Source: an uncultured Bryobacterales bacterium | Lineage (GTDB): Bacteria; Acidobacteriota; Terriglobia; Bryobacterales; UBA6623 | NCBI GenBank assembly: GCA_951813605.1 | Contig: OX638379.1 | Location: 4,600,062-4,664,061, forward strand | DNA: 64,000 bases | Direction: 5' to 3' | In this document: positions 8,780 to 30,769 of the stretch, one piece after another | Position numbering within the stretch: position 1 is the first letter of the stretch | Layout of the letters: every line of letters begins with the position of its first letter | The notes under the pieces: generated by a model | The model's input: the letters and a program-made list of their open reading frames with translations, nothing else | Told to the model about the DNA's origin: nothing | The model's database searches: none | Position numbers and translations under genes: made by a program

Positions 8780-8791
8780 CATCCGCCTGCG

Positions 8792-9448
8792 CTACTTGCC
8801 GCCAACCTTCTCGCCCGGCCGGAGGAGGGTGGGACGCTTGCGCTGCCGCTCGGAGGTAGCGTCCTCTTCCTGCGCGCGCACCCGCTCGACTTCCTTTCTG
8901 CGCTCGGGAGCCATGCTCTCCTTCTGCCGTCGCTTCGCAGCCTCCTCTTCCAGCAGGACCGCACGCTTCCGGTCGCCTAGGTCTTCCGCCAGCAGTTCCA
9001 TGCTGTCCCGGGTAATGCTGAGCGCGTCTTCCAAGACGAACTCGTAGCGCCAAGCGTCCGCCGCCGGCTCGGCCGCAATGGCTCCAAGCCGAGCCGAAAA
9101 CCGCGCTTCGGCTGCTAGCAAGTCTCCCAGCGCGCCGTCCATCTTCCGGTTGCGGACCAGCGCGTCGTCAATCACATCGTCCACCGCCTGGATGATCGAA
9201 CCGTACTCTTTCAGCGATCGATGGACCTTGGCGCCCCGCCCGGCTTCCTCCACCTCCAGCGACTGCTCGATCAACTCCAAGCGCAAAGCGGCGAACTTGA
9301 CGTACGCCTCGATCCGCTCCTCGAATCCCTGGTTATCCCGCAGGACATCGACCTCGTAGTCGGTCAGGAAGTCCCGGCCGCTCGGAAACTCCTGCGCGAC
9401 CGCCGGAATGCACAGGAAAAGGACTAGCGCCAAGCAACGTGTCGACAT
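8792..9448 (-). CDS. Exported helical protein of unknown function
   Basis: The 218-residue product starts with a clear signal peptide (MSTRCLALVLFLCIPAVAQ). The mature part is almost entirely helical and charged. A coiled-coil-like stretch around residues 150-200 is rich in Glu, Arg and Lys, and the tail is very basic. No catalytic motif is visible and I do not recognise the family. It is the last gene of a three-gene minus-strand operon behind the TPR gene at 9911-11146 and the small exported helical gene at 9465-9914. That suggests a periplasmic scaffold or assembly role, but this is inference only. Confidence 0.7.
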   Translation of the reverse strand: MSTRCLALVLFLCIPAVAQEFPSGRDFLTDYEVDVLRDNQGFEERIEAYVKFAALRLELIEQSLEVEEAGRGAKVHRSLKEYGSIIQAVDDVIDDALVRNRKMDGALGDLLAAEARFSARLGAIAAEPAADAWRYEFVLEDALSITRDSMELLAEDLGDRKRAVLLEEEAAKRRQKESMAPERRKEVERVRAQEEDATSERQRKRPTLLRPGEKVGGK

Positions 9449-9464
9449 GATTCGCCTACTCACT

Positions 9465-9914
9465 CTAATCCCTCCGGCTCATGATGCCCAGCAGAAGGAC
9501 TCCATTCGCCTTCTCCACTCGCTGAATTGCTGCCTCGAAGTCGCCTTGGTCCTGCAAGTGGGCCCGGCTCTGCGCCTGCTTCATCTGCCCGAGCAGCTTC
9601 CTAGTGCGGATTTCCGCGCGCTTGAAGTGCCTGGGGTGCCGCCTAGGGTGCTTTCCCGTCGAATGCAGGGCCTCGACGGCTATCTCCACGGCCTTGCCGA
9701 CTGTCTCCAAGGCACTCCTTCCCCGGTCCGGATCGCCTGCGCCGTAGGCGGTGACCGCCGCTTCGAACTCGCCTAGAGCGAATTCCAAGGACTCTCGAGA
9801 GCGCCGTTCCAGGTCCGCTATGGCTTCGATTCGCGCCAGTCCGGGATGCTCGGCTCCCAAGCCAGCAAAGGCCATTGCGCAAAACGCGAGCAGGGGGCCG
9901 GCGCAGCGTGTCAT
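9465..9914 (-). CDS. Small exported helical protein of unknown function
   Basis: The 149-residue protein begins with MTRCAGPLLAFCAMAFAG, a signal peptide, followed by a predicted all-helical body containing a basic patch (TGKHPRRHPRHFKRAE). The arrangement of paired amphipathic helices resembles a degenerate TPR-like hairpin, but no repeat can be aligned with confidence. The ATG at 9914 overlaps the TGA of the upstream TPR gene (ATGA), so translation is probably coupled. It shares its operon and its export signal with both neighbours. I do not recognise the family. Confidence 0.7.
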   Translation of the reverse strand: MTRCAGPLLAFCAMAFAGLGAEHPGLARIEAIADLERRSRESLEFALGEFEAAVTAYGAGDPDRGRSALETVGKAVEIAVEALHSTGKHPRRHPRHFKRAEIRTRKLLGQMKQAQSRAHLQDQGDFEAAIQRVEKANGVLLLGIMSRRD

Positions 9915-11146
9915 CGCTTCGACAGAACCCTTTGGATCGTCTTCAGCCTCTGGTCGGCCTTCCATCGTTCGTCCGCCATGCCGGACTCAAGCGACAGGAA
10001 GGCGCGGTAGGCGGCTGCGGCTTGCTCGTACTGCTGGAGCTTGTCCAGCGAAAGGGCCTTCAAGTACGCGCTGGCGGCCTGCGGCGGGCCCAGCGACTCG
10101 GACTCCCGCAGAGCGCGCAGGCTGCCCGGAAAGTTCCCTAGCTGAAACAGGGCGAAAGCCAGTCCGTTCCAAGCGTCGCGGCTGCGGGCGTCAGCCTCGC
10201 AAGCGCCTAGGTACTCTCTTGCGGCGAGCTCGTAGTCCTGAATCTGCAGCAGGGAGTTCGCGTACCGGACGCGAGCCTCGGCGCTCGCCGGTGATGCATG
10301 CGCCGCGAGCCTGAGCTGTTCCCGTGCCGAGTCGGCGTCCCCGGCCCGGCGATACGCCTCGGCTAGCGCCGCATGCCGTTCCGATCGCGGCTCGATCGAC
10401 ACCGCCCGCTCCAACGCCTTCACCGCGGCCCGGAGATTGCCGTCTTCCAGCAGCAGGATGCCGATCTGCTCTTGCGCGGCCGCGTCGTTCGGTCGGCTGC
10501 GGGCATGTCGACGATACAGCTCCAGCGCGTCTTGCTTTGCTCCCAAGCGCTCGAGCCGTTCGGCAATTCCCATCAAGGTCCCTTCGAACCTCGGGTCGAT
10601 CGCGGCTGCCCGCATGTAGTAAGGCACCGATTCATGAAGCCGGCCCGCATCGGAAAGGGCGTTCGCCAGGCCCACGAGGGCGTCGAGCGAGGAACGGTCC
10701 AGCTCGAGCGCCTTCTTGTACGCGTCCGCCGCGGCCTCCGCGTCTCCGGCTTCGCGACGGGCCGCGGCCAGCAGCAACAGATCGGGAGCCGCGGCCGGGC
10801 GCAGCCGTCCGAGAGCCTCGTACTCGTCGGCGGCTTCCTCGAATCGACCCGCCCGCATCAGGAGCGTGGCGAGATTCTGCCTCGCATGAACTAGATCCGG
10901 CTGTTGCTCGGTGATTGTCCGGTACTGCCGGATCGCGCTGTCGCCGTCTCCCGTCGACTGGAACGCGTAAGCTAGGTTGAACCGGGCGTTCACATTGTCC
11001 GGATCCTCCCCCAGCGCCGCCTCAAGGTGCGGAATCGCGCTCTCGTAGTCGTTCGTTTCTAGGGCTTCCGCAGCTTCCCTCAGCGCATCGGCCCCCAGCG
11101 TGCCCGCTGCGCAGAGAAATACGGCGACTCCGATAAGCCGCGTCAC
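9911..11146 (-). CDS. Exported tetratricopeptide repeat protein
   Basis: The protein has 411 residues with a short signal peptide (VTRLIGVAVFLCAAGTLGA) and then TPR units to the end. Many follow the A-x2-Y/W-x3-G/L-x6-A pattern, for example NVNARFNLAYAFQSTGDGD and DLVHARQNLATLLMRAGR. About ten 34-residue repeats can be counted. TPR solenoids bind partner proteins or peptides, here in the periplasm or at the outer membrane. I chose GTG 11146 because it precedes the signal peptide; the frame stays open upstream only through the neighbouring isomerase gene. It is first in an operon with two small exported helical proteins. Confidence 0.85.
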   Translation of the reverse strand: MTRLIGVAVFLCAAGTLGADALREAAEALETNDYESAIPHLEAALGEDPDNVNARFNLAYAFQSTGDGDSAIRQYRTITEQQPDLVHARQNLATLLMRAGRFEEAADEYEALGRLRPAAAPDLLLLAAARREAGDAEAAADAYKKALELDRSSLDALVGLANALSDAGRLHESVPYYMRAAAIDPRFEGTLMGIAERLERLGAKQDALELYRRHARSRPNDAAAQEQIGILLLEDGNLRAAVKALERAVSIEPRSERHAALAEAYRRAGDADSAREQLRLAAHASPASAEARVRYANSLLQIQDYELAAREYLGACEADARSRDAWNGLAFALFQLGNFPGSLRALRESESLGPPQAASAYLKALSLDKLQQYEQAAAAYRAFLSLESGMADERWKADQRLKTIQRVLSKR

Positions 11147-11208: not shown

Positions 11209-12069
11209 CTAGGCGCGGAGGCCGTTCAGGAGCGCTATGGCGCGCCGGATGTCCTCGCGCTGCTCCCTCCCGACAATCTCGCGCTCGATCGTCAAGGGAC
11301 CGCTGTAGCCGATGCCCTTCAACGCCGCCACGTACTCCTGCATGCCAACATCCCCCTCGCCCAGCGGCGTCTCGCTGCCCCACTCGCCCGGCGTCTCGGG
11401 CCAGGTGCCGTCCTTGCAATGCACGGTGAGGATATGGTCCTTGAGGTCATCCAAAGCCTCCAGCGGCTCGCCGGAGCCGTACAGGATCATGTTGGCCGGA
11501 TCGAAGTTGATGCCGAGGTTCGGGCGGTCCACGGCGCGCAGGAATTCAAGCAGCGCGGGGGCTGGCTCCTGGCCCGTTTCGAGCGCGAATGTCTGGCCGT
11601 TCTCGGCGCATCGGTCGCACACCCTGCGAACGAGCTCGAGCACCGCGACGTAGTCCGAATCCGCGGGATCGTGCGGAAGGCAGCCGATATGCGTTGCCAG
11701 TCCTGGAATCGCCAGCTCTCGCGCAAAATCCGAGACCGCGTAGGTCCGCCGCTCGCGCTCTTCCCGGCTGGCTCGCGGCACGTAGCCTACTGTCTGCGCG
11801 CAGATTGGAATGCTCGCGTAGCTCTCGCCGTGGAATCCCGTGAAGGCGGTGACAACGCGCAAGCCGCCTCGCTCCAGCGCGGACCGCCATGACCGGGCGG
11901 ACGGCTCGCTCAGGTCAGCGTCACCATGCACCCCGATTTGGCCGCACGAGACACCCAATGAACGGACCGACTCGACTATTTCACCGGGAGCGGCCTCGAA
12001 TCCTAGGTCGCCGCCCGTCCAAAACATCAGGCCGACCTGCAGTGGCTCAAGATCTGTCACGATGGCCAT
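11209..12069 (-). CDS. Sugar phosphate isomerase/epimerase family TIM-barrel protein
   Basis: The 286-residue cytosolic protein belongs to the xylose isomerase-like (AP endonuclease 2) TIM-barrel family. Metal-binding positions are visible in the strand ends: LETGQE (Glu), NFDPANM (Asp), TVHCKD (His, Asp) and TIERE (Glu). A PLGEGDV loop sits before the last strands, as in this family's sugar isomerases and keto-sugar enzymes. It has no signal peptide, unlike the second family member at 22672-23589. It lies 54 bases downstream of a Gfo/Idh/MocA oxidoreductase on the same strand. Such pairs usually act together on a keto-sugar or inositol-type substrate; the exact substrate is unknown. Confidence 0.85.
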   Translation of the reverse strand: MAIVTDLEPLQVGLMFWTGGDLGFEAAPGEIVESVRSLGVSCGQIGVHGDADLSEPSARSWRSALERGGLRVVTAFTGFHGESYASIPICAQTVGYVPRASREERERRTYAVSDFARELAIPGLATHIGCLPHDPADSDYVAVLELVRRVCDRCAENGQTFALETGQEPAPALLEFLRAVDRPNLGINFDPANMILYGSGEPLEALDDLKDHILTVHCKDGTWPETPGEWGSETPLGEGDVGMQEYVAALKGIGYSGPLTIEREIVGREQREDIRRAIALLNGLRA

Positions 12070-12124
12070 TGTAAGGCAGGTCCGGGGATTGCGCCACAGT
12101 CGGCAGCCGGCCGGGCGGGATATA

Positions 12125-13270
12125 TCAGTCGACTTCCACCCAGCCCCCTTCGGCGTCGCTGCGGAGCACCGCCTCGACCAGCTCCAGCTGGCGCAGGCCG
12201 GCGTCGAACCCCGGCAGATCGCCGGCTAGGGAGTGATCGCGGCAGGCGGCGTAGAATCGCCGAAAGAACTGCTTAAAGGTGTCCGCGTACCCCTCGGAAT
12301 GACCGCCCGGCAAGTCGGCGAACCCGCGGGCGCCTCGCTCCAGCAAGGATGGGTCCTTGACCAGAAGCTGGTTCTTGCCGTCGCGGCGGCCAACCCAGAG
12401 CTCGTTCGGCCTCTCGCCGTCCCAGGTCAGGCCGCAACGGGTGCCGTATATTTCCATAAGCAACCGGTTCTTGCGGCCAGCCGCCACCTGGTTGACCGTG
12501 AAGGAGCCGCGGGCCCGTCCGTCGAAGCGCAGCAGGACGGCGGCAAAGTCTTCCGTGCCGATGGGACGATCTTCGTAGTCCTCCGGCGCGAGCATCTTGC
12601 CCGCATAGGTCTCGAGCGGCTTCTTCGGCTTCTTGCGGATCGGATGAAAAGTCGCCAGTTCGGCGCACACCGCCCTGATCCGCCTGCCCGTCACGTGCTC
12701 GAGAAGGTCGCACCAATGCGATCCTATGTCCGCCATGGCCCGCGAGGCGCCGCCCACCTCCGGCTCGAGTCGCCAGTTGTAGTCCGTGTCATAGAAGAGC
12801 CAATCCTGAACGTAGCTCCCTTGCACCGCCAGGATTTCGCCCACCTGGCCCGTTTCGACCATGCGTCGCATTTGGGCGACGTTCGGGTAAAACCGCAGGT
12901 TGTAGCTCGTGGCATGCACCACGCTCTTCGCTCGCGCCAGCTCGACCAGCCGCGCGGCCTCAGCAGCGGTCATCGCCAAGGGCTTCTCGCAGATCACGTT
13001 CTTCCCCGCTTCGATGGCGTCCCTTGCAATCGGGAAATGCGTCTTGTTCGGCGTGCAGATATGAACCGCGTCGATCGACGGATCGTCCAGCAGGTCGCGG
13101 TACTCGCCGGTGGTTCGCGCCACTCCCAGCGCCCGCCCGAAGCCCGCCGCGATTTCCGCGGTCTGGTCCGCGATCGCAACGACCTCGGCGTCGGTCTGCC
13201 GGCGGATGTTCTCGACATGCACGCGGCCCACAAACCCCGTGCCAATCACCGCAACGCGCAACTTCTCCAT
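12125..13270 (-). CDS. Gfo/Idh/MocA family NAD(P)-dependent oxidoreductase
   Basis: The 381-residue enzyme has the N-terminal Rossmann motif VAVIGTGFVGRVH, then the family landmarks HICTPNKTHFPIA and the lysine-containing VICEKPLAMT. The substrate-side motif with the histidine region ADIGSHWCDLLEHVTG follows. Members interconvert hydroxyl and keto groups on sugars or inositols. The C-terminal alpha/beta sheet domain is complete and there is no signal peptide. GGAGGG nine bases ahead of ATG 13270 supports the start. Transcription runs into the TIM-barrel isomerase at 11209-12069, making a plausible two-step oxidation/isomerisation (or lyase) unit. Confidence 0.92.
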   Translation of the reverse strand: MEKLRVAVIGTGFVGRVHVENIRRQTDAEVVAIADQTAEIAAGFGRALGVARTTGEYRDLLDDPSIDAVHICTPNKTHFPIARDAIEAGKNVICEKPLAMTAAEAARLVELARAKSVVHATSYNLRFYPNVAQMRRMVETGQVGEILAVQGSYVQDWLFYDTDYNWRLEPEVGGASRAMADIGSHWCDLLEHVTGRRIRAVCAELATFHPIRKKPKKPLETYAGKMLAPEDYEDRPIGTEDFAAVLLRFDGRARGSFTVNQVAAGRKNRLLMEIYGTRCGLTWDGERPNELWVGRRDGKNQLLVKDPSLLERGARGFADLPGGHSEGYADTFKQFFRRFYAACRDHSLAGDLPGFDAGLRQLELVEAVLRSDAEGGWVEVD

Positions 13271-20217: not shown

Positions 20218-22617
20218 ATGTCTCAGGAATTAGTCATCTCATCGAATCCGATCGAGACGACAGTGGCGATACTCGAGGATGATCGCCTAGTCGAAATCTA
20301 CGTTGAGCATCACGCCAAGAAAGCGATAAACGGAAGCATCTACAAGGGGCGCGTGACACGCGTGCTACCAGGCATGCAATCCGCTTTCGTGGACTTGGGC
20401 TTGAAGCGCGATGCGTTCCTATACGTCACCGACATCGTCGATCCCGCAGAGAGCGCAGGCGGTGAGGTGGACGCGCCCCTTATTGAAGCCGAGCCCCCTA
20501 AGCCGGTGCCGTCGACCGCCCTGGATTCGAAGTCGAATGGGACGGTCAAAGACGGGTCCGCCGAATCGGTGCCTCCGGCTAGGACGGAGCAGTCGGGGGA
20601 AGCCGGCAACTCCGACGGACGCGCAGTGAAACGCTCCCGGCGCCGAGGCCGGAGGCGCCGCCGAGGCCGGAGGCCCGGGGCGCGAGCCAAGGCCGCCGAA
20701 GCGGAGCCCGAAGCCCGGTCGCAAGAGGCGCCCGCGGAGACGCAGGGCGACGATTCCACAGACGGGCATCCGGTGCTGCTGCCGGGCGAATCCATCGCCA
20801 AGTACCGCAATGCCGCCCGCGTGAAACGCGTGAGCCGCAAGCAGGCGAAGACCGCCAAGCCGAGCTCGGTCGAGACGGAAGGCGGGCTTGACGAGACGCG
20901 CTCGGCGGACGCATCGGTGCCACGCGAAGAAAGCAGGCTTGACTCAGAGGCGGCCGCGGTATCGACCCCGCTGACCGGCACCGAAGAGTCGAGCAGTGCG
21001 GAGAGCGCGCCGCCCGGGACAAGCACGGAACCGCGGCGGAGCCGCGCGGAAGTTTCCGCGCCGCCTGCGGTGGCCGAGCTTCGACTGGGCATCGTGCACT
21101 GGCTCAAGCGCAAGGCCGGCGGCACTGGGAGCCCCGCTGCGAAAGCAGAGCCGAAGCCACCGGCACGTTCCGCAAAGAGGACTCGGCCGGCCAAGGCGTC
21201 GGCTAAGGCCAAACGCGGCCGCAAGACAGAGCCCCGGTTTGCTGCGGGCGGCCCGGCAGCGGGCCGCAAGCGGCGTTCCGGGCGCAGGAGGCCCCCACCC
21301 GCCAAACGTGGGTCGGGCGTCCGAGCGAAGGCGAGTCCAAAGAGCGCCGAATCGAAGCGCGCCAAGCGCCATGGCGGCCCGAAGCAGGTCGGCCCGGAGG
21401 CGAAGATCAAGGACCTGCTCAAGAGCGGCCAGGAGCTGATCGTTCAGGTGAGCAGGGAGCCGGTTGGGGCCAAGGGCGCTCGCATCACGTCGCATGTCTC
21501 GCTGCCGGGCCGCTACATGGTTTACATGACCACGGCCAAGCACAACGGTGTTGCACGAAATATCCAGCCAGAATCCGAACGGAACCGTCTGCGCAAGATC
21601 GTCAAGAAGCATTCCCATGCGAAGCCGGGTGGATTCGTCGTGCGAACGGCAGGGCGAGGCGTCGCCGAAGAGGCGCTCGTGGCCGACATGGAGTTCTTGC
21701 ACGGGCTCTGGACGTCCATCCTAGAGAAGTCCGAGAAGCGCAAAGCCCCCGCCAAGCTTCATAGCGATCTCGATATCGTCGAACGCGTTCTGCGCGACCA
21801 TCTGGGACAGAACTACAAGGCCGTATGGGTTGACTCCGAAGACACGTACGAAACGATTGTGAAATTCGCGGAGCGCTTCCACCCCAATCTAGTCAAGCGG
21901 ATCAAGCTCTATACGAAGCGCAAGCCGATTCACGACACGTTCGGCATATCAAAAGATCTGAGCAAGGCTCTCAAGCCCAAGGTATGGCTCAAGTCGGGCG
22001 GCTACCTGGTGATCAACCAGACCGAGGCACTCGTCGCAATCGATGTCAACACCGGAAGGTACGTCGGCAAGTCCGATCGCCTCGAGGACACAGTGCTGAA
22101 AACGAATCTCGAAGCAGCGGATGAGATCGTGCGGCAACTGCGCCTTCGCGACCTTGGCGGTATTATCGTCATCGACTTCATCGACATGGAGGACCGCAAG
22201 AACCGGCAGAAGGTGCATCAAGTGCTTCAGGACGCGCTGCGGAAGACTCGGTCGCCCTCGAGGCTGCTTCCGTTCAATGACTTCGGTCTGGTCGTGATTA
22301 CACGGAAAGCCGTCCGTCAGTCGTTGGAGCGGGCCTTGTGCATGCCGTGCCCGGCCTGTTCAGGGGCCGGCAAGGTCAAGTCCTCGGCCACGGTCCTGTC
22401 TGAGATCTTCTCGGCCGCGGGGCGCATAGCCGCAGACAAGAAGAAGAAGACCCCCAAGCGCGGAAAGGAGCTTACCCTGCGGGTTCATCCGGAAATCGCG
22501 AGATCGCTCAAGAAGAAGTCCAATTCGCACCACGAGGATCTGGAAGAAACTGCCGGGACCAGCGTGCTCGTGCGGGGCGACTCGTCATTGCATCCAGAGC
22601 ATTTCACTCTGGCCTAG
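20218..22617 (+). CDS. rng: Ribonuclease E/G family protein with large low-complexity insertion in the S1 domain
   Basis: The 799-residue endoribonuclease processes and degrades RNA. The S1 domain begins normally (SIYKGRVTRVLPGMQSAFVDLG, residues 40-61) but is interrupted at about residue 77 by roughly 310 residues of Arg/Lys/Ala/Pro/Glu-rich sequence, resuming near 390 (AKIKDLLKSGQELIVQV). The 5'-sensor/RNase H region and DNase I-like catalytic domain follow, with the metal aspartates in VAIDVNTGR and IIVIDFIDM. The zinc link is CPAC near residue 706. Typical RNase G has about 490 residues, so the excess lies almost wholly in the insertion, not in a C-terminal degradosome scaffold. Confidence 0.95.
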   Translation: MSQELVISSNPIETTVAILEDDRLVEIYVEHHAKKAINGSIYKGRVTRVLPGMQSAFVDLGLKRDAFLYVTDIVDPAESAGGEVDAPLIEAEPPKPVPSTALDSKSNGTVKDGSAESVPPARTEQSGEAGNSDGRAVKRSRRRGRRRRRGRRPGARAKAAEAEPEARSQEAPAETQGDDSTDGHPVLLPGESIAKYRNAARVKRVSRKQAKTAKPSSVETEGGLDETRSADASVPREESRLDSEAAAVSTPLTGTEESSSAESAPPGTSTEPRRSRAEVSAPPAVAELRLGIVHWLKRKAGGTGSPAAKAEPKPPARSAKRTRPAKASAKAKRGRKTEPRFAAGGPAAGRKRRSGRRRPPPAKRGSGVRAKASPKSAESKRAKRHGGPKQVGPEAKIKDLLKSGQELIVQVSREPVGAKGARITSHVSLPGRYMVYMTTAKHNGVARNIQPESERNRLRKIVKKHSHAKPGGFVVRTAGRGVAEEALVADMEFLHGLWTSILEKSEKRKAPAKLHSDLDIVERVLRDHLGQNYKAVWVDSEDTYETIVKFAERFHPNLVKRIKLYTKRKPIHDTFGISKDLSKALKPKVWLKSGGYLVINQTEALVAIDVNTGRYVGKSDRLEDTVLKTNLEAADEIVRQLRLRDLGGIIVIDFIDMEDRKNRQKVHQVLQDALRKTRSPSRLLPFNDFGLVVITRKAVRQSLERALCMPCPACSGAGKVKSSATVLSEIFSAAGRIAADKKKKTPKRGKELTLRVHPEIARSLKKKSNSHHEDLEETAGTSVLVRGDSSLHPEHFTLA

Positions 22618-22671: not shown

Positions 22672-23589
22672 CTAGGTTCCGAAGGCCGACGCGTACTGTG
22701 ACTTCAGATACTTGAAGTCCGTTTCGATTGCCTGCATTTCCTTGTCGATCCGCTGTGCCTCCGTAGGTGCCTCGATCCCGTACTCCACATGCAGGGAGAT
22801 CGGCCCGGAGAAGCCGCTAGCTGCGAGTGCTTCGAAGAACCTCGGGTAGTCCACCATGCCCTGCCCGAGCGGGCACATCTGAGCCTTCCACTCGCCCTGT
22901 CGCTTGTCCCAGTAGAAATCCTTGCAGGCCACCATCTTGAGACGCGGAACAAGCCGGTGAAACCCGATCTCCCAGCCCGCAGCGCCTCCTTCGATTGTTG
23001 CGTGACAGGGGTCGAAGTAGAAGCCGATGTGCTGCGGGTCGGTATGACGCAGAATCCACCAGTGGTCCCAAAGGGCGCTGCCGACGAACGTGCCCGAATG
23101 ATTATGGAAGCCGCCCGTGATCCCCGCGTGACCCGCGATCGCGGCCAAGCCCTCTACATCGGCCTTGACGCGTGCAAGGTAGCCGTCGAGATCCGCGAAG
23201 TGTCGATAGCGGTAATAGCCCAGCTTGAAATAGGGGACGCCAAGTTTCGCCGCAGTGTAGAGAGTGGGGCGGGCAGCGGAGTCGTTGCGCGAGAGCAGGC
23301 CGGTGGTGATCATCGGCAATTCGATGCCTTCCGCAGCCAGGGCATCGTGGGCGCGCGGCAAGTCGCGCTCGACATTCTCCGGAAGGACGTGGCCACGCGG
23401 CCGGACGGTCAAGTCGGCGCCCTCGAAGCCGAATGAGCGGAGCGTGCTTGCCAGGTCCTTGTAGCCAAGATGCGGAAGGTGCTTTGTAAACAGGCAGAGC
23501 GTTGGTTTCCTCGCCGGGCCGTCTCCCGCCGCCGAGGCGGTCGCCACCGCGGAGCCGGCTAGCAGCTCTCGACGTGTCAGGCATCGCAT
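22672..23589 (-). CDS. Exported sugar isomerase/epimerase-like TIM-barrel protein
   Basis: The 305-residue protein starts with MRCLTRRELLAGSAVATASA, a Tat-like signal with twin arginines. The body is an AP endonuclease 2-type TIM barrel with metal-ligand positions GGFHNHSG (His), IGFYFDPCHA (Asp, His), VACKDF (Asp) and SLHVEYG (Glu). Proteins of this kind isomerise, epimerise or eliminate keto-sugars; export implies a periplasmic substrate. I start at ATG 23589 because upstream codons form no signal peptide. It is the last gene of a minus-strand run of four exported proteins (DUF1080, SelA-like, DctP, this one). Confidence 0.85.
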   Translation of the reverse strand: MRCLTRRELLAGSAVATASAAGDGPARKPTLCLFTKHLPHLGYKDLASTLRSFGFEGADLTVRPRGHVLPENVERDLPRAHDALAAEGIELPMITTGLLSRNDSAARPTLYTAAKLGVPYFKLGYYRYRHFADLDGYLARVKADVEGLAAIAGHAGITGGFHNHSGTFVGSALWDHWWILRHTDPQHIGFYFDPCHATIEGGAAGWEIGFHRLVPRLKMVACKDFYWDKRQGEWKAQMCPLGQGMVDYPRFFEALAASGFSGPISLHVEYGIEAPTEAQRIDKEMQAIETDFKYLKSQYASAFGT

Positions 23590-23624
23590 TTCAATTCCCC
23601 CTTGGCGGCCTCTTCGGAGCGAGG

Positions 23625-24647
23625 TCACGGCGCCCGGAATTCATCTCTCCAGCGGAGTGCTTCGTCCAGCAGTTCCGCAGGAGCGTAGCGGCCCCTGAGA
23701 CCCGGATAGGCCTCCTCGACTTCGCGGCTCCATTCCGCTATGAGGGTGTCGTCCGTCTCTATCACCCGCAGGCCGTACTTCTGCATTGCGCTAACCGCGT
23801 CGCGTTCCTGTCGTCGCACCGCGGCCTCGATCTCGCTGGCAGCGTCGATCGCGGCCTCTCGCATCAAGGTCCGCTGATTCGAGGGGATCCGTTCCCACAC
23901 GCCGTTGTCGATCAGCACGGAGCCGATGATCGGTATGAACCGAAGGTCGAGCATGTTGGGAGCGGAAGCGAACCACTGGTATCCCGCGGCGACGAGCGGA
24001 GGGACGGCGAAGACCTCGACCAGCCCGGTTTCAAGGTTCGCTTGCAACTCGGTCAAGTCAAGCGGCACGGCGCGGAAGCCGAACTCGGAGAACAGCCTCA
24101 GCATTTCGTCGTCGCCCTTGGATGTGTAGAGCTTCATCGCCCTGAGCTCGGCGGGGGTCCGGAATTCCCTGACGGCGAAGAAATAGGCCCAGCCGGCGTC
24201 GCCCCACGCCAGGACTGTGAATCCCTTCTCTTTGAGACGCCGTTCCAGGACGGGGGCCATCTTTCCGCGAACATAGTCGAACTCCTCGATCGACTCGAAC
24301 ATCAAAGGAACCTGCAGGGCGCTGATGCCCTCGTCCAGGAACGACATGCCGCTGCCGGAAATCAGCGCGGCCTGCATCTGGCCCGCGCGCATCTTGCGCA
24401 GCATCGTCACTTCGTCGCCCGCGACGCCGCCTGGGTAGACGGTCAGATCCACGGCGCCCCCAGAGATTTCCCTCCAAGATTGCCGCATGCGCATGAGCAC
24501 TTCGTGGTAAATGCTGTTCTTCGGCGCGATGGTGCCGAGCTTGACCTTGTTGGGGCGGCGTCTCTGCGCCGACGCGGCGTCGAAGGCCCCCGACATCGCC
24601 AGAATCGCCGCTACAGCGATGATCAAGGGGAACCCAAGTCTCTTCAT
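23625..24647 (-). CDS. TRAP transporter solute-binding protein (DctP family)
   Basis: The 340-residue protein has a signal peptide (MKRLGFPLIIAVAAILAMSG, cleaved near Ala-Ser-Ala-Gln) and the DctP fold. The first strand is KLGTIAPKNSIYHE, followed by MLRKMRAGQMQAALISG and the hinge region with the family AMKLYTSKG segment, whose Arg/Lys usually contacts a carboxylate. TRAP binding proteins capture organic acids for DctQM permeases. No dctQ or dctM gene is next to it or in this window, so the protein is an orphan or supplies a distant permease. It lies 35 bases upstream of the exported isomerase on the same strand. Confidence 0.9.
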   Translation of the reverse strand: MKRLGFPLIIAVAAILAMSGAFDAASAQRRRPNKVKLGTIAPKNSIYHEVLMRMRQSWREISGGAVDLTVYPGGVAGDEVTMLRKMRAGQMQAALISGSGMSFLDEGISALQVPLMFESIEEFDYVRGKMAPVLERRLKEKGFTVLAWGDAGWAYFFAVREFRTPAELRAMKLYTSKGDDEMLRLFSEFGFRAVPLDLTELQANLETGLVEVFAVPPLVAAGYQWFASAPNMLDLRFIPIIGSVLIDNGVWERIPSNQRTLMREAAIDAASEIEAAVRRQERDAVSAMQKYGLRVIETDDTLIAEWSREVEEAYPGLRGRYAPAELLDEALRWRDEFRAP

Positions 24648-24937
24648 GTCGATCCTAGACCTGCAGTTCGGCCGCCCTGCGAATCCCAGCCAAGCCTTGC
24701 CGCCTCCTAAAGCCGTTGCGGTTGCGTCCTGTCGCAAGCCCTGCCTCGCGGGGGCTTTACATAGTATATGCGCGGCCCACCGGTATCCTCGGCGGCCGAC
24801 TGGAACGGGGCCGGGCGGTGAGCCGCGCGCGTGACTAGACGCCAAGCGCGAACCGCGCGCGCATCATTCATTTTGCGAAGGACCGCCGTACGAAGTTGAA
24901 TGGCAGTTCCGGGTTGCTTCGCACGGCACAGCCCCAG

Positions 24938-26176
24938 TCAGGAGGAGGCGCCTATTGCCTCCGCTAGCACGCCGCGAACCTGGCGGCCCACGACGCGCTC
25001 CTCGCCGGGTTCCATCATCCAGACGGCGATCACGAGCCCGTCCTCATAGCCGGGGCGAACTTCGACGCCCGGGTCTCTATCGCGCAGGCGTGCCGCCGCT
25101 TGCTCCGGGACGAGAGCGGCGCGGCGGTAGTCCCATCGGACCCTCAAGTGCGGGACGGCGTTGGCGATCTCGGGCACGAAGATCTCGGTCGAGACGCCGC
25201 TGAGACTGGCCAGCGCCTGCTCGATTCGCTTGCATCGCCGTGTCCACTCCTTCCATACCTGTTCGTGATCTCGCTCAATGAACAGCTCTAGCGCAACGAG
25301 CATGCCCACGATCTCTTCCTTGTTCACCTTGTTGGTCCGCCCCACGGAATCGGAGTGCGGGCTGTTGTTCAGCCGAGCGGCCTCGATGAGGTCGCGACGC
25401 CCGAGCAGCAGCCCCGCGGACTGAGGGCCCAGCAAGCCCTTGCCTCCGGAGAAGGCCACCAAGTCGTAACCCATCTTCGTGAAGCGGAAAAGATTGTCCG
25501 CGGGCGGAAGGTCGGCAGCCGCGTCGTTCAGAGTCGGTATGCCGTGCGCCTTGCCGACACCCACGAACTCCTCGTGGCCGATGCGTCCGGCGCGCTCGGC
25601 ATGATTGAGGAAGAACATCATCGCGGTCCGCTCGCCTATCGCGGCTTCCATTTCCCGCAGGGTCTCGACTTCGACCAGGCGCACGCCGCAGTTCCGGACC
25701 GCGTGGTCGTAAGCGTTGCGGTGCGCCTTCTGCATCACAACTTCGTCCTTCATGCCCGCGGTGTCCGGCAATCTCTTGATGCGCTCGACATTGTCACCCG
25801 CGACGCACGCGGCAGTAGCAAGCGTTAGCGCAGATGCGCAACCCGCGGTGACCAGCGCAGCCTCGCAATCCAGTAGCTGCGCGATGCGGTCGCCCGCCTT
25901 CTCGTGCAGCTCGCCCAAGTCGACGTAGCGGGTCGAGGCCCCCTGCATGGCGCTCAACACTTCCGGCGGCATTTTCGAAGCTGTCAGCCGCGTGTAGGTG
26001 CCGGCGGCGTTGACAAACGTTCGGACGCCTAGTTCGCCGAGGACGTCGCGCGCGGAACGCAAGCGCTTTGCCTGCTTCGCGGCACTCGAAGGCCCTGCGG
26101 CGAAGGCACCTGCCAGAGGCCCGCCTACGGCCAAGCGCATGAAGGCGCGTCGGTCGCGCGATAGCCAGCCAAACAT
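24938..26176 (-). CDS. Exported SelA-like PLP-dependent enzyme
   Basis: The 412-residue protein has a Tat signal (SRDRRAFMRLAVGGPLAGAF) followed by a fold-type I PLP domain of the SelA/aminotransferase V type. Landmarks are FVNAAGTYTRLTASKM, the cofactor segment ALVTAGCASALTLAT, the aspartate loop TLNDAAADLPP and the Schiff-base lysine in AFSGGKGLLGPQSAG. It is unlikely to make selenocysteinyl-tRNA, because it is exported and has no selA-selB context; relatives act on amino sugar acids or amino acids. Tat export fits a protein folded around PLP in the cytosol. It sits between the DUF1080 and DctP genes. Confidence 0.85.
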   Translation of the reverse strand: MFGWLSRDRRAFMRLAVGGPLAGAFAAGPSSAAKQAKRLRSARDVLGELGVRTFVNAAGTYTRLTASKMPPEVLSAMQGASTRYVDLGELHEKAGDRIAQLLDCEAALVTAGCASALTLATAACVAGDNVERIKRLPDTAGMKDEVVMQKAHRNAYDHAVRNCGVRLVEVETLREMEAAIGERTAMMFFLNHAERAGRIGHEEFVGVGKAHGIPTLNDAAADLPPADNLFRFTKMGYDLVAFSGGKGLLGPQSAGLLLGRRDLIEAARLNNSPHSDSVGRTNKVNKEEIVGMLVALELFIERDHEQVWKEWTRRCKRIEQALASLSGVSTEIFVPEIANAVPHLRVRWDYRRAALVPEQAAARLRDRDPGVEVRPGYEDGLVIAVWMMEPGEERVVGRQVRGVLAEAIGASS

Positions 26177-26257
26177 GGAACCCTCCACCAAGAATCGATC
26201 ACAGGACACGGCATCTTCCCGCCAACAGGACTCGCCTGCGCCTGCCGGACAGGAACC

Positions 26258-26905
26258 TCATTGCAGTGGCTTGATGCGAATGCTGCGGAACTCGACAGGC
26301 TCGTTGTGACCGAGAAAGCCCACATGACCCCGGGCGCGCCGCAGTCCCGGATGCCTCGCCAATGTAGGGCGGTCGCGCACCTCCCGGGTGTCAAAGTCAA
26401 GAATCGTCTTCCCGTTCAGCACGACGCGGATCTCCGATCCTCGGACAGTCACTTCCTGACTGTTCCATTCGCCAGCCGGCTTGAGGGCCCCCGTCTTGGC
26501 CGGAGCCACGTTGTACAGCGAGCCGTGCTTCTGCCACGGCTTGATCTGCGCGTAGCGCGAAGCGCTGTTGTCGATGATCTGGAGTTCGTTCCCGTCGTAA
26601 GCCAAGTTGCGCCATGCTAGCGGACAGCGGATGCAAAGGCCGTTGTTGGAGCCCGATTCCAGCTTGAATTCGAACCGCAATACGAAATCGGAGTATTCCG
26701 AAGCCGAAAGCAAATTCCCTCCGCTTCCGCGAGGGCAGACGATCTTCCCGTCCCGGACCACGTAGCCGTCACCGTGCTGCCCGAGCAGGACCCAGCCATC
26801 AAGCGAGACGCCATCGAACAGCGGCTCGAAGCCTTCCTCCGCGGACGCAGCGGAAAGCGTCGCTGCGTGCAGTGTCGACATCAGGATGAGGCTCGCCCAG
26901 CGCAT
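26258..26905 (-). CDS. Exported DUF1080 (3-keto-disaccharide hydrolase type) protein
   Basis: The 215-residue protein has a signal peptide (MRWASLILMSTLHAATLSA) and one DUF1080 domain, a concanavalin-like beta sandwich. Hallmarks are the opening FEPLFDGVSLDGWVLLG, the middle FVLRFEFKLESGSNNGLCIR, NELQIIDN with a KHGSLYNV block, and the closing HVGFLGHNEPVEFRSIRIKPL. The family is linked to keto-glycoside cleavage and carbohydrate binding in soil and planctomycete-type bacteria. It is the first gene of the minus-strand exported cluster, 81 bases before the SelA-like gene. Confidence 0.9.
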   Translation of the reverse strand: MRWASLILMSTLHAATLSAASAEEGFEPLFDGVSLDGWVLLGQHGDGYVVRDGKIVCPRGSGGNLLSASEYSDFVLRFEFKLESGSNNGLCIRCPLAWRNLAYDGNELQIIDNSASRYAQIKPWQKHGSLYNVAPAKTGALKPAGEWNSQEVTVRGSEIRVVLNGKTILDFDTREVRDRPTLARHPGLRRARGHVGFLGHNEPVEFRSIRIKPLQ

Positions 26906-27020: not shown

Positions 27021-27398
27021 GTGGGACCCACGCTGTACGACATCGTCGGGGAGGACGGGTTCGATCGGCTCACGCGGGCTTTCTACGCGCAAGTGCCCGA
27101 GGACGAACTGCTTGGACCCATGTATCCGCCGGAGCAATTGGAAGCGGCGCAAGTTCGCCTGCGCGACTTCCTCGTCGGGCGGTTCGGGGGGCCGCAGCGC
27201 TATATCGAGCAGCGAGGCCATCCGCGGCTGCGCATGCGCCACATGCCGTTTCCGATCGACGGCCGGGCACGCGACCGCTGGATGGCGCTGATGGCCAATG
27301 CGCTGAAGAAAGCCCGCTTTCCGGCGGCGGTAACACAATCCCTGTACCGCTACTTCGCGCAGACGGCCACGTTCATGATCAATCGCGCACGAGGCTAG
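27021..27398 (+). CDS. Truncated hemoglobin, group II-like
   Basis: The 125-residue globin has the 2-on-2 fold pattern: opening LYDIVGEDGFDRLTRAFYAQV, the F-helix region GHPRLRMRHMPF with the proximal heme-ligating H74, and the G8 tryptophan W87 in DRWMALM. The E-to-F stretch and Trp G8 fit group II (trHbO), which handle oxygen, NO or peroxide. The start is GTG 27021. The last 20 bases overlap the convergent tesA homologue. No other stress gene is adjacent to suggest its use. Confidence 0.92.
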   Translation: MGPTLYDIVGEDGFDRLTRAFYAQVPEDELLGPMYPPEQLEAAQVRLRDFLVGRFGGPQRYIEQRGHPRLRMRHMPFPIDGRARDRWMALMANALKKARFPAAVTQSLYRYFAQTATFMINRARG

Positions 27399-28107
27399 CC
27401 GTGTCCGCGACAAGGCGTTCGAAGGCGTCTGCCACGTGGCGGGCGATGATCTCGTTGCCCGCCGAGTTGGGATGGATTCCGTCGCTGTTGTTCAATTCAC
27501 GCACCATCGCGACGTCCTGGAGCAAGAATGGAATGAGAGGCAAGCCCAGCTGCTCCGCCAGCCGAGGGTAAACGGCCTCGAAATCGCCCACGTACTCGGG
27601 CCCGTAGTTGCGGGGCAGCTTCATCCCCGCCAGCAGGACCCGCGCCCCGCCTCCCGCGAACCGTCGCACCATCTCCGCGAGGTTCCGTTCCATGGCGTCG
27701 AGCGGCAGGCCGCGCAAGCCGTCGTTGGCCCCGAGCGCCAGGATCACCCACTGCGGCCCGTACGCGAGCGCGGTGCCGACGCGGCTCAGAGCCTTGGCGG
27801 TGGTATCGCCGCTCACGCCTTCGTTGACAACCCGGAATGCCAGGCGGCGGCTGTCGATCTCCCGCTGAAGGTAGGCTGGAAACGTCTCGTCTCGATCAAC
27901 GCCTTGGCCAGCCGTGAGACTGTCCCCGAACGCGACGATTACCGGTCTGGCGTCCTGCGCGATCTCGACCGCGGGCTCGGCCCGCTCCGGGGCGCTCGCT
28001 TCGCTGCCCGCGGTCCGCTCCTGCGACCCGCAGCCTGCCAGCAGCAAGAGTGCTGCGAGCAGTGTCCGTTCGCGACCGCGGCGTAACGCGCAGGGGCTTC
28101 CAACCAC
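27379..28107 (-). CDS. tesA: GDSL-family arylesterase/lysophospholipase lipoprotein (TesA-like)
   Basis: The 242-residue protein is an SGNH hydrolase: VIVAFGDSLTAGQG gives the nucleophile serine (block I), LGANDG the block III asparagine, and NSDGIHPN the Asp and His of block V. The N terminus ends in the lipobox LLAGC with C26 as the lipidated residue, so it is a lipoprotein rather than the soluble periplasmic form of E. coli TesA. The start is GTG 28107. As in E. coli, it is divergent from a YbbA-type ABC ATPase, with only 30 bases between them. Confidence 0.9.
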   Translation of the reverse strand: MVGSPCALRRGRERTLLAALLLLAGCGSQERTAGSEASAPERAEPAVEIAQDARPVIVAFGDSLTAGQGVDRDETFPAYLQREIDSRRLAFRVVNEGVSGDTTAKALSRVGTALAYGPQWVILALGANDGLRGLPLDAMERNLAEMVRRFAGGGARVLLAGMKLPRNYGPEYVGDFEAVYPRLAEQLGLPLIPFLLQDVAMVRELNNSDGIHPNSAGNEIIARHVADAFERLVADTASLVRD

Positions 28108-28137
28108 CCTGTCATAATAGGAGATCTACTTCCGCTC

Positions 28138-28860
28138 ATGCCGAACTCAGGCCCCGTGCTCGAGGCGCGAGGCCTCGCGAAGTCCATCCGCAGCGGTTCG
28201 CGCGTGGTGGAAATCCTGCGGGGCATCGACTTCGCTATCCCCCGTGGCACTTTCGCAGTCATACAAGGGCCGTCCGGAAGCGGCAAGAGCACGCTCCTCG
28301 GCTTGCTAGCGGGCCTGGACAAGCCCTCGTCCGGGGAAATCTTCTTGGACGGCCAGCCCCTTTCCGGCTTGGCGGAGGACGAGATGGCGCTGCTGCGGGG
28401 GCGGAAAATCGGCTTCGTCTTTCAGGCCTACCAACTCGTCCCCACGCTGACCGCCTTGGAGAACGTGATGCTGCCGCTGGACCTGACCGGCTGCGTGGGC
28501 GCCGAGTCGAGGAGTCGGGCGATGGGATTGCTCGGGCAGGCTGGCCTCGCCGAAAGGACGGATCACTACCCGGTCCAGCTCTCGGGCGGCGAGCAGCAGC
28601 GGGTTGCGCTGGCCCGCGCCTTCGTGACGCGGCCGCCCATCGTGCTGGCGGACGAGCCGACCGGCAACCTGGACAGCAGGAACGGCGCGTTAGTGCTCGA
28701 CATGCTGCTCAGCTTGAACCGCGAAGCGGGCACAACCCTCGTGATGGTCACCCACGACGAACAGATCGCGTCCAAGGCAGACCGCCGCATTTCGTTGATG
28801 GACGGACAGATCGTCGCGGACAATGCGCGCGCGTCCTCGCTCGAAGCCGTGGCGCTGTGA
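28138..28860 (+). CDS. ABC transporter ATP-binding protein, YbbA/LolD type
   Basis: The 240-residue ATPase has Walker [11 protein letters not shown]-loop [10 protein letters not shown], signature [14 protein letters not shown], Walker [10 protein letters not shown] and H-loop MVTHD. The sequence groups with MacB/LolD-type ATPases that power mechanotransmission or lipoprotein extraction rather than small-molecule transport. In E. coli ybbA is followed by the large permease ybbP. Here no permease follows; the SRP RNA gene comes 30 bases later, so the partner must be encoded elsewhere or is lost. A TesA homologue lies divergently upstream. Confidence 0.92.
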
Positions 28861-28890
28861 CCCGGAATCCTGGCGGGATGTTATTCTGAC

Positions 28891-28998
28891 GGTGGGCTTC
28901 GGACCCGTGCAGCGGGAAGCTGCGAACCCCGCCAGGTCCGGGAGGAAGCAACGGTAGTGGCCTCTGCCGCGTGCCGCGGTAGTATCCGGAGCCCAACT
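28891..28998 (+). ncRNA. ffs: Signal recognition particle RNA, small bacterial (4.5S) type
   Basis: The conserved SRP domain is present: AGGTCCGGGAGGAAGCA at about 28942-28958, with the GGGA version of the GNRA tetraloop where GGAA is usual, and the asymmetric loop that binds Ffh. The ends pair in a long stem, 28891-28903 (GGTGGGCTTCGGA) with 28985-28997 (TCCGGAGCCCAAC), with one G-U pair and one mismatch, giving the hairpin shape and a length of about 108 bases. Its position just before dnaX-ybaB-recR is a known arrangement. The RNA pairs with Ffh to target membrane proteins to the Sec translocon. Confidence 0.93.
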
Positions 28999-29020
28999 TC
29001 CCCCGGCCCGGACCTCTCGC

Positions 29021-30769
29021 ATGTACCAGGTCATCGCGCGCAAGTACCGGCCTCAGACTTTCGAAGAGGTGGTCGGGCAAGCTCACGTCAAGCAGACCCT
29101 GCGCAACGCGATCGACCAAGGGCGGATCGCCCACGGCTATGTTTTCTCGGGTCCGCGCGGGACCGGCAAGACAACCTTGGCGCGCATCCTCGCAATGGCG
29201 CTGAACTGCGAGGGAGGGCCGAGCTCGTCGGCCGACCCGCAATCTCCCGCCTGCAGGGAGATCGCAGCGGGAGGCTCGCTGGATGTCATTGAGATTGACG
29301 CCGCGTCGAATCGCCGGATCGACGATATCCGCGAACTCCGCGAAAGCGTCAGGTTCCGCCCGGTACGCGACCGCTACAAGGTGTTCATCATCGACGAGGC
29401 GCACCAGATCACCAGCGACGCCTTCAACGCCCTGCTGAAGACCTTGGAAGAGCCCCCTGAATGGGCGGTTTTCGTGCTGTGCACCACGGAGCCCCAAGCG
29501 ATTCCGCCTACGATCGCGTCGCGCTGCCAGAGCTTTGCATTCCGCTCCGTGGACTTGCCGCTGGTGATCGAGCACCTGGCCAGGATCTGTCGCAGCGAGG
29601 GGGTGGAGGCAGAGAACGACGCACTGACCGCTCTGGCATTGGCAGGCGACGGCTCGATACGCGACTCGCTCTCCGCGCTAGACCAATCGATCGCTGCCTT
29701 CGGCAAGAGTCTCGACGCAAAGCAGGTAAGGGATCTTCTCGGTGCGATCCCTAGCGAAGTGACCGTGCAAATTCTCGTCGCAATTCGCGACGGCGATCCA
29801 GGGGCCATGCTGGCGATTGTCGACGACCTCTTCCAGCAGGGCCGGCATCCCCAGCACTTCTGCGGCGAGCTGACGCGCCAATTCCGCAATTTGATGGTGA
29901 TGAAATTCGCCGGAGCGGATTCGCACCTAGTGGTCGCCGGGGAACGCGAGCGCGAAGCGGCCCGCGCTTGGACCGAGGAATTCTCGAACGAGGATCTCAC
30001 TCGCTACGTCCAGATCCTGCTAGCGCTGTACCAAGACCTTCAGCAAGCCACGCAGCAGCGGTTTCGCCTGGAGATCGGACTGCTCAAGCTGGTGTTCGCC
30101 GGGCGGCTGAGGCCAATCGAGGAACTCTTGTCGGGGCTCGCGCCGGGCGAATCGGCAACACCGCCGCAGCCGGCGTCCCGCAAGGTCCGGCGAAGGCCCT
30201 CGACGGCGCGCCCGCCCGTCGCTACGCCGGCTCGGCCCGAGCCCGCCCCTGTCGCGTCAGCGGCCCCCGCCGCCGAAAGCCGAGCCAGCAAGCGCGTGAA
30301 GGAACGCGCTCCGAGGCCCCCTCAACCCGCTCCCGTTCCGGAGCTGGCGCCGCCTCCGCCCGCCGTGACTGAGTTCAAGCAGCGGCTGATCGAATCGATC
30401 GAGCAGTCGGAGGCAGCTTTCTTGGCGGACGCGATTCGATCCAGCGAGCTGGAACGGCAAGGCCGCGTCGTGACCTTTCGCGTGCCCGACGAGTGGACCG
30501 CCATGATGGAACTGCAAAAGCCGCTACTAGAGGCAGCGCTGATGGGGCTCGTGGGCGGCAAACCTGATGTTAGACTCGTAGGCGGCAACGCTGGTTCGTC
30601 CGGGCAAGACCAGTCGTCCCCCGCCCCGTCCCCTGCACGTGCCGCGGAGGCCCGGGATTCGGGCCACGTTGACCAGCGCGCGCTGGCAAATCCCGCGTTT
30701 CTCGAGTTCAAGAAGCGATTCGAGGGCCGTGTGGCGGACGTGATGGACCTGAGAAAGAAGGCGCAGTGA
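29021..30769 (+). CDS. dnaX: DNA polymerase III subunit tau/gamma
   Basis: The 582-residue clamp-loader ATPase has Walker A GPRGTGKTT (residues 44-52), Walker B FIIDEAH, sensor 1 CTTEP and sensor 2 GSIRDSLSALDQ. Domain III ends near residue 370. The alanine/proline-rich linker that follows leads to a C-terminal domain (about 440-520) and tail, as in tau. The zinc module is incomplete: C63 and C78 remain, but the central CxxC pair found in E. coli DnaX is replaced by SSSADPQSPA. I see no clear slippery heptamer for a gamma product. Its TGA overlaps the ybaB GTG. Confidence 0.96.
   Translation: MYQVIARKYRPQTFEEVVGQAHVKQTLRNAIDQGRIAHGYVFSGPRGTGKTTLARILAMALNCEGGPSSSADPQSPACREIAAGGSLDVIEIDAASNRRIDDIRELRESVRFRPVRDRYKVFIIDEAHQITSDAFNALLKTLEEPPEWAVFVLCTTEPQAIPPTIASRCQSFAFRSVDLPLVIEHLARICRSEGVEAENDALTALALAGDGSIRDSLSALDQSIAAFGKSLDAKQVRDLLGAIPSEVTVQILVAIRDGDPGAMLAIVDDLFQQGRHPQHFCGELTRQFRNLMVMKFAGADSHLVVAGEREREAARAWTEEFSNEDLTRYVQILLALYQDLQQATQQRFRLEIGLLKLVFAGRLRPIEELLSGLAPGESATPPQPASRKVRRRPSTARPPVATPARPEPAPVASAAPAAESRASKRVKERAPRPPQPAPVPELAPPPPAVTEFKQRLIESIEQSEAAFLADAIRSSELERQGRVVTFRVPDEWTAMMELQKPLLEAALMGLVGGKPDVRLVGGNAGSSGQDQSSPAPSPARAAEARDSGHVDQRALANPAFLEFKKRFEGRVADVMDLRKKAQ

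Follow-up and report, generated by a model that had tools for sequence, protein, structure and literature searches.

Genes at the locus

The stretch of DNA analysed here, referred to as the window, comprises 64,000 nucleotides of a genome from the Bryobacterales (Acidobacteriota; G000:C1:4600062-4664061), which is 6.19 Mb in size and assembled as one contig. Four minus-strand ORFs lie where the original prediction had placed them, and all exceed the Pfam gathering scores of their families. The DUF1080 ORF (26258-26905; PF06439, 3keto-disac_hyd, formerly DUF1080) encodes a protein of 215 aa with a Sec leader, and next to it is the ORF of a SelA-like or DgaE-like PLP enzyme (24938-26209, the protein spanning 24938..26176; PF03841/PF00266, SelA/Aminotran_5). 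The remaining two ORFs encode a TRAP solute-binding protein that resembles TatP(T) and has a Sec leader (SBP; 23625-24647; PF03480, DctP) and a TIM barrel (22672-23628; PF01261, AP_endonuc_2), the latter a protein of 305 aa occupying 22672..23589 from an ATG at 23589.

Outside the block, one flank carries a plus-strand RNase E/G gene (20218..22617), whose position beside the TIM barrel-SBP pair is conserved, and the other carries genes for a globin, a GDSL lipase, an ABC ATPase and dnaX (27021..30769), which are conserved neighbours of the DUF1080-SelA-like pair. In the RNase E/G protein, a long basic stretch rich in Ala, Arg and Lys precedes the catalytic domain, with the Pfam match beginning at residue 428.

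Export leaders

Two of the four proteins begin with a twin-arginine leader. For the TIM barrel this is LTRRELLA, read from ATG 23589 with the RR codons near 23574-23569, and the N-terminus from this preferred start is MRCLTRRELLAGSA. The SelA-like protein, 412 aa in length from its preferred start at ATG 26176 (GTG 26209 being a possible alternative), carries the leader DRRAFMRL, with RR at 26152-26147 and the N-terminus MFGWLSRDRRAFMRLAVGG. With a test that looked for RR followed by a hydrophobic stretch downstream of predicted start codons, the motif was found in 36/36 SelA-like homologues and 9/9 TIM-barrel homologues, as compared with 0/10 SBPs, 1/13 DUF1080 proteins, and 31 of 220 unrelated ORF clusters scored identically. 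All 19 additional SelA-like loci from the phylum also have an RR leader as judged by eye, and TatC is encoded in the genome at C1:1250234. A conserved RR-x-hydrophobic leader in a genome with TatC is what would be expected of Tat substrates, and the TIM barrel and the SelA-like protein both have it.

Conservation of this kind is sequence conservation, short of proof of export. Start codons and export are both predicted from sequence, and the RR leaders might be inert N-termini of proteins that stay unexported; given how regularly the leader is kept among homologues relative to the other ORF clusters, and the presence of TatC, this explanation is highly improbable. The earlier observation that enzyme types normally found in the cytosol bear export signals is thus borne out by the conserved leaders, and the description as Tat-exported stands for the TIM barrel and the SelA-like protein as candidate Tat substrates, whereas the leaders of DUF1080 and the SBP are of the Sec type.

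Gene order in related genomes

The original prediction proposed a single pathway for the four genes, with the SBP as importer, and named a gene order unique to this genome with no shared regulation as grounds for its own rejection. Since adjacency of the four genes was found in none of ten congeners and is unique to G000, those grounds largely apply as regards gene order. What is conserved are two separate pairs. DUF1080 lies directly before the SelA-like gene in all 11 genomes of the genus, with a globin gene adjoining the pair in every case but G004, where one gene intervenes, and with the GDSL, ABC and dnaX genes farther along where the contig extends that far; no SBP or TIM gene follows this pair in any of the ten congeners. 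The SBP-TIM barrel pair is intact but located elsewhere in 8/10 congeners, adjoining RNase G and/or tatT, the exceptions being G007, in which the TIM gene is broken, and the draft G001, from which both genes are missing. The broken gene of G007 (L091 8146-8765; G007:C92:23145-23764) has a stop, a frame change and an internal deletion beside an intact SBP gene, and is a pseudogene or a MAG error. In G004, both pairs are present on one contig at a distance of ~510 kb (SelA-like gene, 954881; SBP gene, 444887).

The neighbourhood of the SBP-TIM pair in relatives also locates the junction. The pair faces RNase G in G004, G007 and G008, and TatT precedes the SBP gene in several congeners and in G014, a member of another genus of the family in which TatT, SBP and TIM lie in tandem. 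In most congeners, the SBP gene is preceded by TatT, DUF885 and MoxOx (a molybdopterin-type oxidoreductase). The G000 copies of these three genes are found at C1:5.134-5.139 Mb, ~0.5 Mb from the SBP gene, which places the likely breakpoint just upstream of the SBP gene. The interval 24648..24937, where the two conserved pairs meet, would then be a rearrangement breakpoint specific to the window genome, although the junction is known from one assembly and should be regarded as a candidate rearrangement. A promoter scan returned no promoter-like site, and a terminator scan returned two terminator-like sites, fewer than in shuffled sequences, such that the pairs are not separated by either scan.

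From synteny, the block probably represents two independent exported modules juxtaposed by rearrangement in G000, and a four-gene operon is rejected. One four-gene periplasmic pathway, converting a keto- or amino-sugar that is then imported via the SBP, would fit the common strand, tight spacing and conserved leaders, as well as the link of the DUF1080 family to 3-keto-glycosides (PMC9007349). Set against this are the absence of the order in 10/10 congeners, by which the pathway is largely refuted, and the TatP-like nature of the SBP, whose TatT and TatQM partners are encoded elsewhere; we judge such a pathway very unlikely. The four-gene cluster as first described is, judged by gene order across the genus, a coincidence, and illustrates how gene adjacency in one genome may suggest a pathway that relatives contradict.

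A TatP-like binding protein

The best of 73 PDB matches to the SBP is Tp0957, the TatP(T) protein of the TPAT system (TatT/TatP/TatQM) of Treponema pallidum (E 6e-27; PMC5812351). When the SBP is aligned to three TRAP proteins, the position of the arginine that binds the ligand carboxylate is occupied by Tyr174 (24128-24126), which is invariant in eight SBP orthologues, and the protein consequently lacks the conserved Arg of canonical carboxylate or sugar-acid TRAP SBPs. TatP homologues are reported mostly to lack the carboxylate-binding Arg, with hydrophobic molecules as the presumed cargo of the TPAT system (PMC5812351).

The gene neighbourhood agrees with this assignment. TatT lies directly upstream of the SBP gene in 10/10 distant Acidobacteriota loci, and in the two of these that were inspected further (L164 and L170) a fused DctQM-sized gene follows the SBP gene, with confirmation by Pfam for L164. 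Adjacency to tatT is therefore seen in congeners, in G014 and in all ten distant genomes, but not in G000 itself, where a fused TatQM is present as an open frame at C1:1252421-1254202 (54% identity). Because TatT and the fused TatQM occur elsewhere in the G000 genome, the SBP is an orphan only locally: the earlier description of an orphan TRAP protein is correct for the locus but not for the genome.

The likeness to the treponemal system thus extends to the nearest homologue, the adjacency of TatT across Acidobacteriota, the fused TatQM and the missing ligand Arg. The differences are that the three genes of G000 are at three loci, that a TIM barrel is linked to the SBP here and absent from the treponemal operon, and that the Arg position is Tyr here as opposed to Ala. 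With the Arg absent and TatT linked, identity as a sugar-acid TRAP importer was rejected: a protein of this type does not resemble an importer of sugar acids. In G000, ~1.5 kb separates the twin-arginine tatC from the TatQM-like gene of the TRAP system (C1:1250234-1254202), the shared name Tat being a coincidence of nomenclature.

A TIM barrel with predicted export

The TIM barrel matches PF01261 with 86.1 bits against a gathering score of 31.1, but its nearest characterized relatives are less obvious. A phmmer search against the PDB gave no match at 1e-3, and a profile search gave weak matches, the best with an E value of 0.024. The structural model (pLDDT 89.4) has fold matches with Z up to 26.7, with epimerases, isomerases, hydratases and lyases fitting about equally (Z 22.5-26.7). 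Among these are keto-glycoside TIM barrels, namely the 2-hydroxy-3-keto-glucal hydratase AtHYD (8ro4, Z 25.3) and the 3-keto-beta-glucopyranoside-1,2-lyase AL1 (Z 23.0), and also YcjR (Z 23.1).

The residues H162-N-H164, D193, H196 and E269 are retained, and the protein shares the fold, the H-x-H motif and the beta-8 Glu with the keto-glycoside TIM barrels AtOGE, AtHYD, AL1 and YcjR. It differs from them in its Tat leader and at the beta-7 metal His, which is present in metal-dependent keto-glycoside TIM barrels of the AtOGE/AL1/IolE type and is replaced by Ala221 (22929-22927) in alignment with the His of IolE 3cny and of 8tcs. The exported clade has Ala, Ser or Gly at this position, whereas a paralogue in the window (11209-12069) has His. 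A keto-sugar role is likely for the TIM barrel; epimerases and isomerases score equally well.

At five loci in other Bryobacterales, a Gfo/Idh/MocA protein adjoins the TIM barrel, and those of L177, L178 and L180 have an RR leader at the N-terminus. For the one such protein that was scanned, the best NCBIfam match, which fell short of the cut-off, was to the glycoside 3-dehydrogenase family BT_2158. Within the window, the second TIM barrel, with its beta-7 His intact, also adjoins a Gfo/Idh/MocA oxidoreductase (11209-13270).

The PLP enzyme and its DUF1080 partner

The original prediction was of a SelA-like enzyme; the Pfam match to SelA/Aminotran_5 holds, with DgaE-like ancestry, but the protein is closer to DgaE and Cap15 than to SelA. 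DgaE ranked first by NCBIfam and by phmmer. The best NCBIfam match was to the DgaE-like PLP family TIGR01437, at 176 bits and below the cut-off of 385.3, as compared with 38.4 bits for SelA (TIGR00474, equivalog cut-off 267.9); an NCBIfam profile comparison gave 148.7 bits, and the protein lies far below the NF047797 cut-off. In the case of the AlphaFold2 model (mean pLDDT 88.7), the closest fold is Cap15 (8t7j; Z 40.6, rmsd 2.0, 350 aligned, 29% identity), followed by DgaE (Z 38.4, rmsd 2.7, 354 aligned, 27% identity), with SelA at a Z of about 26. By these comparisons, the protein is a predicted Tat-exported branch of the DgaE/Cap15 family, of which six genes are present in G000 and up to 24 in relatives.

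The PLP lysine K246 (25441-25439) is invariant in 32 homologues and aligns with K213 of DgaE, in the same motif of a fold type I PLP enzyme. Other DgaE residues are less well preserved. The His-162/163 pair is represented here by N188 and H189, and the position of His-163, the DgaE proton donor (PMC9529869), is H, R, N or A among close relatives; the Arg-301 position is His343 and not conserved, position 332 is Arg374 and variable in relatives, and position 346 is beyond the alignment. The family cut-offs and the non-conserved His-163 together rule out a true SelA or DgaE orthologue. DgaE differs in setting too: its substrate is a phosphorylated sugar acid that enters the cell through a PTS (PMC9529869), whereas the enzyme described here has a Tat leader.

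The closest fold raises another explanation, namely that the protein is an O2-using PLP oxidase or oxygenase of the Cap15 kind as opposed to an ammonia lyase. Cap15, a PLP monooxygenase-decarboxylase, is the best fold match, and the DgaE proton donor is not conserved. PvdN, a further PLP enzyme, is Tat-exported. PvdN is likewise oxygen-using (PMC7497351). However, DgaE ranked first in both sequence searches, the identities to the two proteins are close, O2 use is not readable from sequence, and Cap15 serves antibiotic biosynthesis, with a likeness here that is one of fold. An oxygenase is accordingly the less probable assignment, and an unlikely one, relative to a DgaE-like ammonia lyase.

The DUF1080 protein, by its match to PF06439 (143 bits, gathering score 26.8), belongs to the keto-glycoside family, as the original prediction had recognized; the family is tied to 3-keto-glycosides (PMC9007349). 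Like the 3-keto-glycoside hydrolases CCNA_01705 and BT2157 (PMC9007349), it is a single-domain secreted protein, but the window block has no 3-dehydrogenase and the partner is a PLP enzyme. The pair could constitute a glycoside pathway in which a 3-keto amino-sugar glycoside is first split by DUF1080, after which the freed amino-sugar acid loses its amino group to the SelA-like enzyme, as might be argued from the fixation of the pair throughout the genus and from a PIG-L deacetylase and UxaC near relatives. Such a pathway is rather doubtful, as DUF1080 was not seen adjoining SelA-like genes outside the genus, the dehydrogenase is missing from the block, and the 23 DUF1080 domain matches in the G000 genome make a chance pairing easier.

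Predicted exported PLP-RidA neighbourhoods across the phylum

The chemistry of PLP enzymes and RidA normally takes place in the cytosol, where RidA shields enzymes from reactive 2-aminoacrylate. A RidA gene is found within 1.5 kb of the SelA-like gene at 11/19 phylum loci, as compared with 0/24 SBP loci and 0/30 TIM loci (0/54 control loci); six of the eleven are from one genus (g63) and are not independent, the others being from five further genera. An RR leader is present on almost every one of these RidA proteins, so that a predicted Tat-exported RidA adjoins a predicted Tat-exported SelA-like enzyme at L200, L203-L210, L212 and L214, and RR leaders are also present on RidA at L044 and L051-L053. 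An amidohydrolase/deacetylase accompanies four of the 19 SelA-like loci, and also L035 (Bacteroidetes), L037, L045 and L050, with both copies scanned assigned to NF006689. Such neighbours suggest that amino acids or amino-sugar acids are deaminated in the periplasm. An association with RidA is plausible because the DgaE H163A mutant is still active and accumulates intermediate (PMC9529869).

A comparable set of partners is known from the ong chitin-oxidation pathway of marine bacteria, in which a deacylase works together with a PLP deaminase and RidA (OngB/OngC/OngD) on N-acetylglucosaminic acid in the cytoplasm (PMC9537276). The likeness is by partner types only: OngB and OngC are predicted to be cytoplasmic, and the window gene has no adjoining RidA. 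By analogy, the simplest reading of the SelA-like/RidA loci is a periplasmic version of ong-type chemistry, with an amino acid or amino-sugar acid of some kind as substrate. We tentatively propose, as a possibility that falls somewhat short of even, that Acidobacteriota and some Bacteroidota carry out full PLP deamination in the periplasm, with an exported amidohydrolase/deacylase, a Tat-exported DgaE/Cap15-like enzyme preloaded with cofactor, and a Tat-exported RidA hydrolysing the enamine/imine, thereby stripping nitrogen before uptake. The window gene adjoins neither RidA nor an amidohydrolase, and its partner in the genus is DUF1080, which would be a genus-specific one; the function suggested for the window pair is therefore transferred from relatives.

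The chemistry and substrates that we infer from gene content, leaders, synteny, TatP features and fold can be set out as follows. In the first module (DUF1080 and the DgaE-like enzyme), the PLP enzyme, given its leader, would fold with its cofactor in the cytoplasm and then be exported by Tat. In the periplasm, an amino acid or amino-sugar acid would most likely be bound by it as an external aldimine, with beta-elimination and deamination yielding a keto acid and ammonia; these steps are proposed because the fold is like that of DgaE, Lys246 is invariant, and exported RidA and an amidohydrolase/deacetylase recur as neighbours in relatives. DUF1080, in the genus of the window, might perhaps open or supply a keto-glycoside substrate. 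In the second module (the SBP and the Tat-exported TIM barrel, ancestrally adjoining TatT), TatT/TatP/TatQM would form a TPAT TRAP system of the treponemal type, probably for hydrophobic ligands, with the TIM barrel as an accessory sugar or keto-sugar enzyme. Counting against this account are the lack of conservation at the DgaE His-163 and Arg-301 equivalents, the closest fold being an O2-dependent decarboxylating oxygenase (Cap15), by which deamination may be wrong, and the TIM barrel metal site without its beta-7 His.

In the literature searched, which covered few subscription papers, we found no account of an exported PLP enzyme, RidA or SelA-like protein from Acidobacteriota, and the exported PLP-RidA module looks new. 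It is this family that is worth pursuing, the joint pathway being unsupported. If the proposal is correct, a conserved Tat-exported PLP-RidA pair would mean that the periplasm hosts such chemistry together with the need to quench a reactive product, and would provide a testable function for a family that in some Acidobacteriota exceeds 20 copies per genome.

Two further arrangements were seen among SelA-like loci. At L035 (Bacteroidetes contig VGGW01000028.1, ~6990-10471), a RidA-like piece, a SelA-like gene with an RR leader and an amidohydrolase gene are consecutive. SelA-like paralogues at L037:14378-16003, L038, L044:9687-11297 and L045:9185-10801 have an additional C-terminal domain of ~120 aa, of unassigned family.
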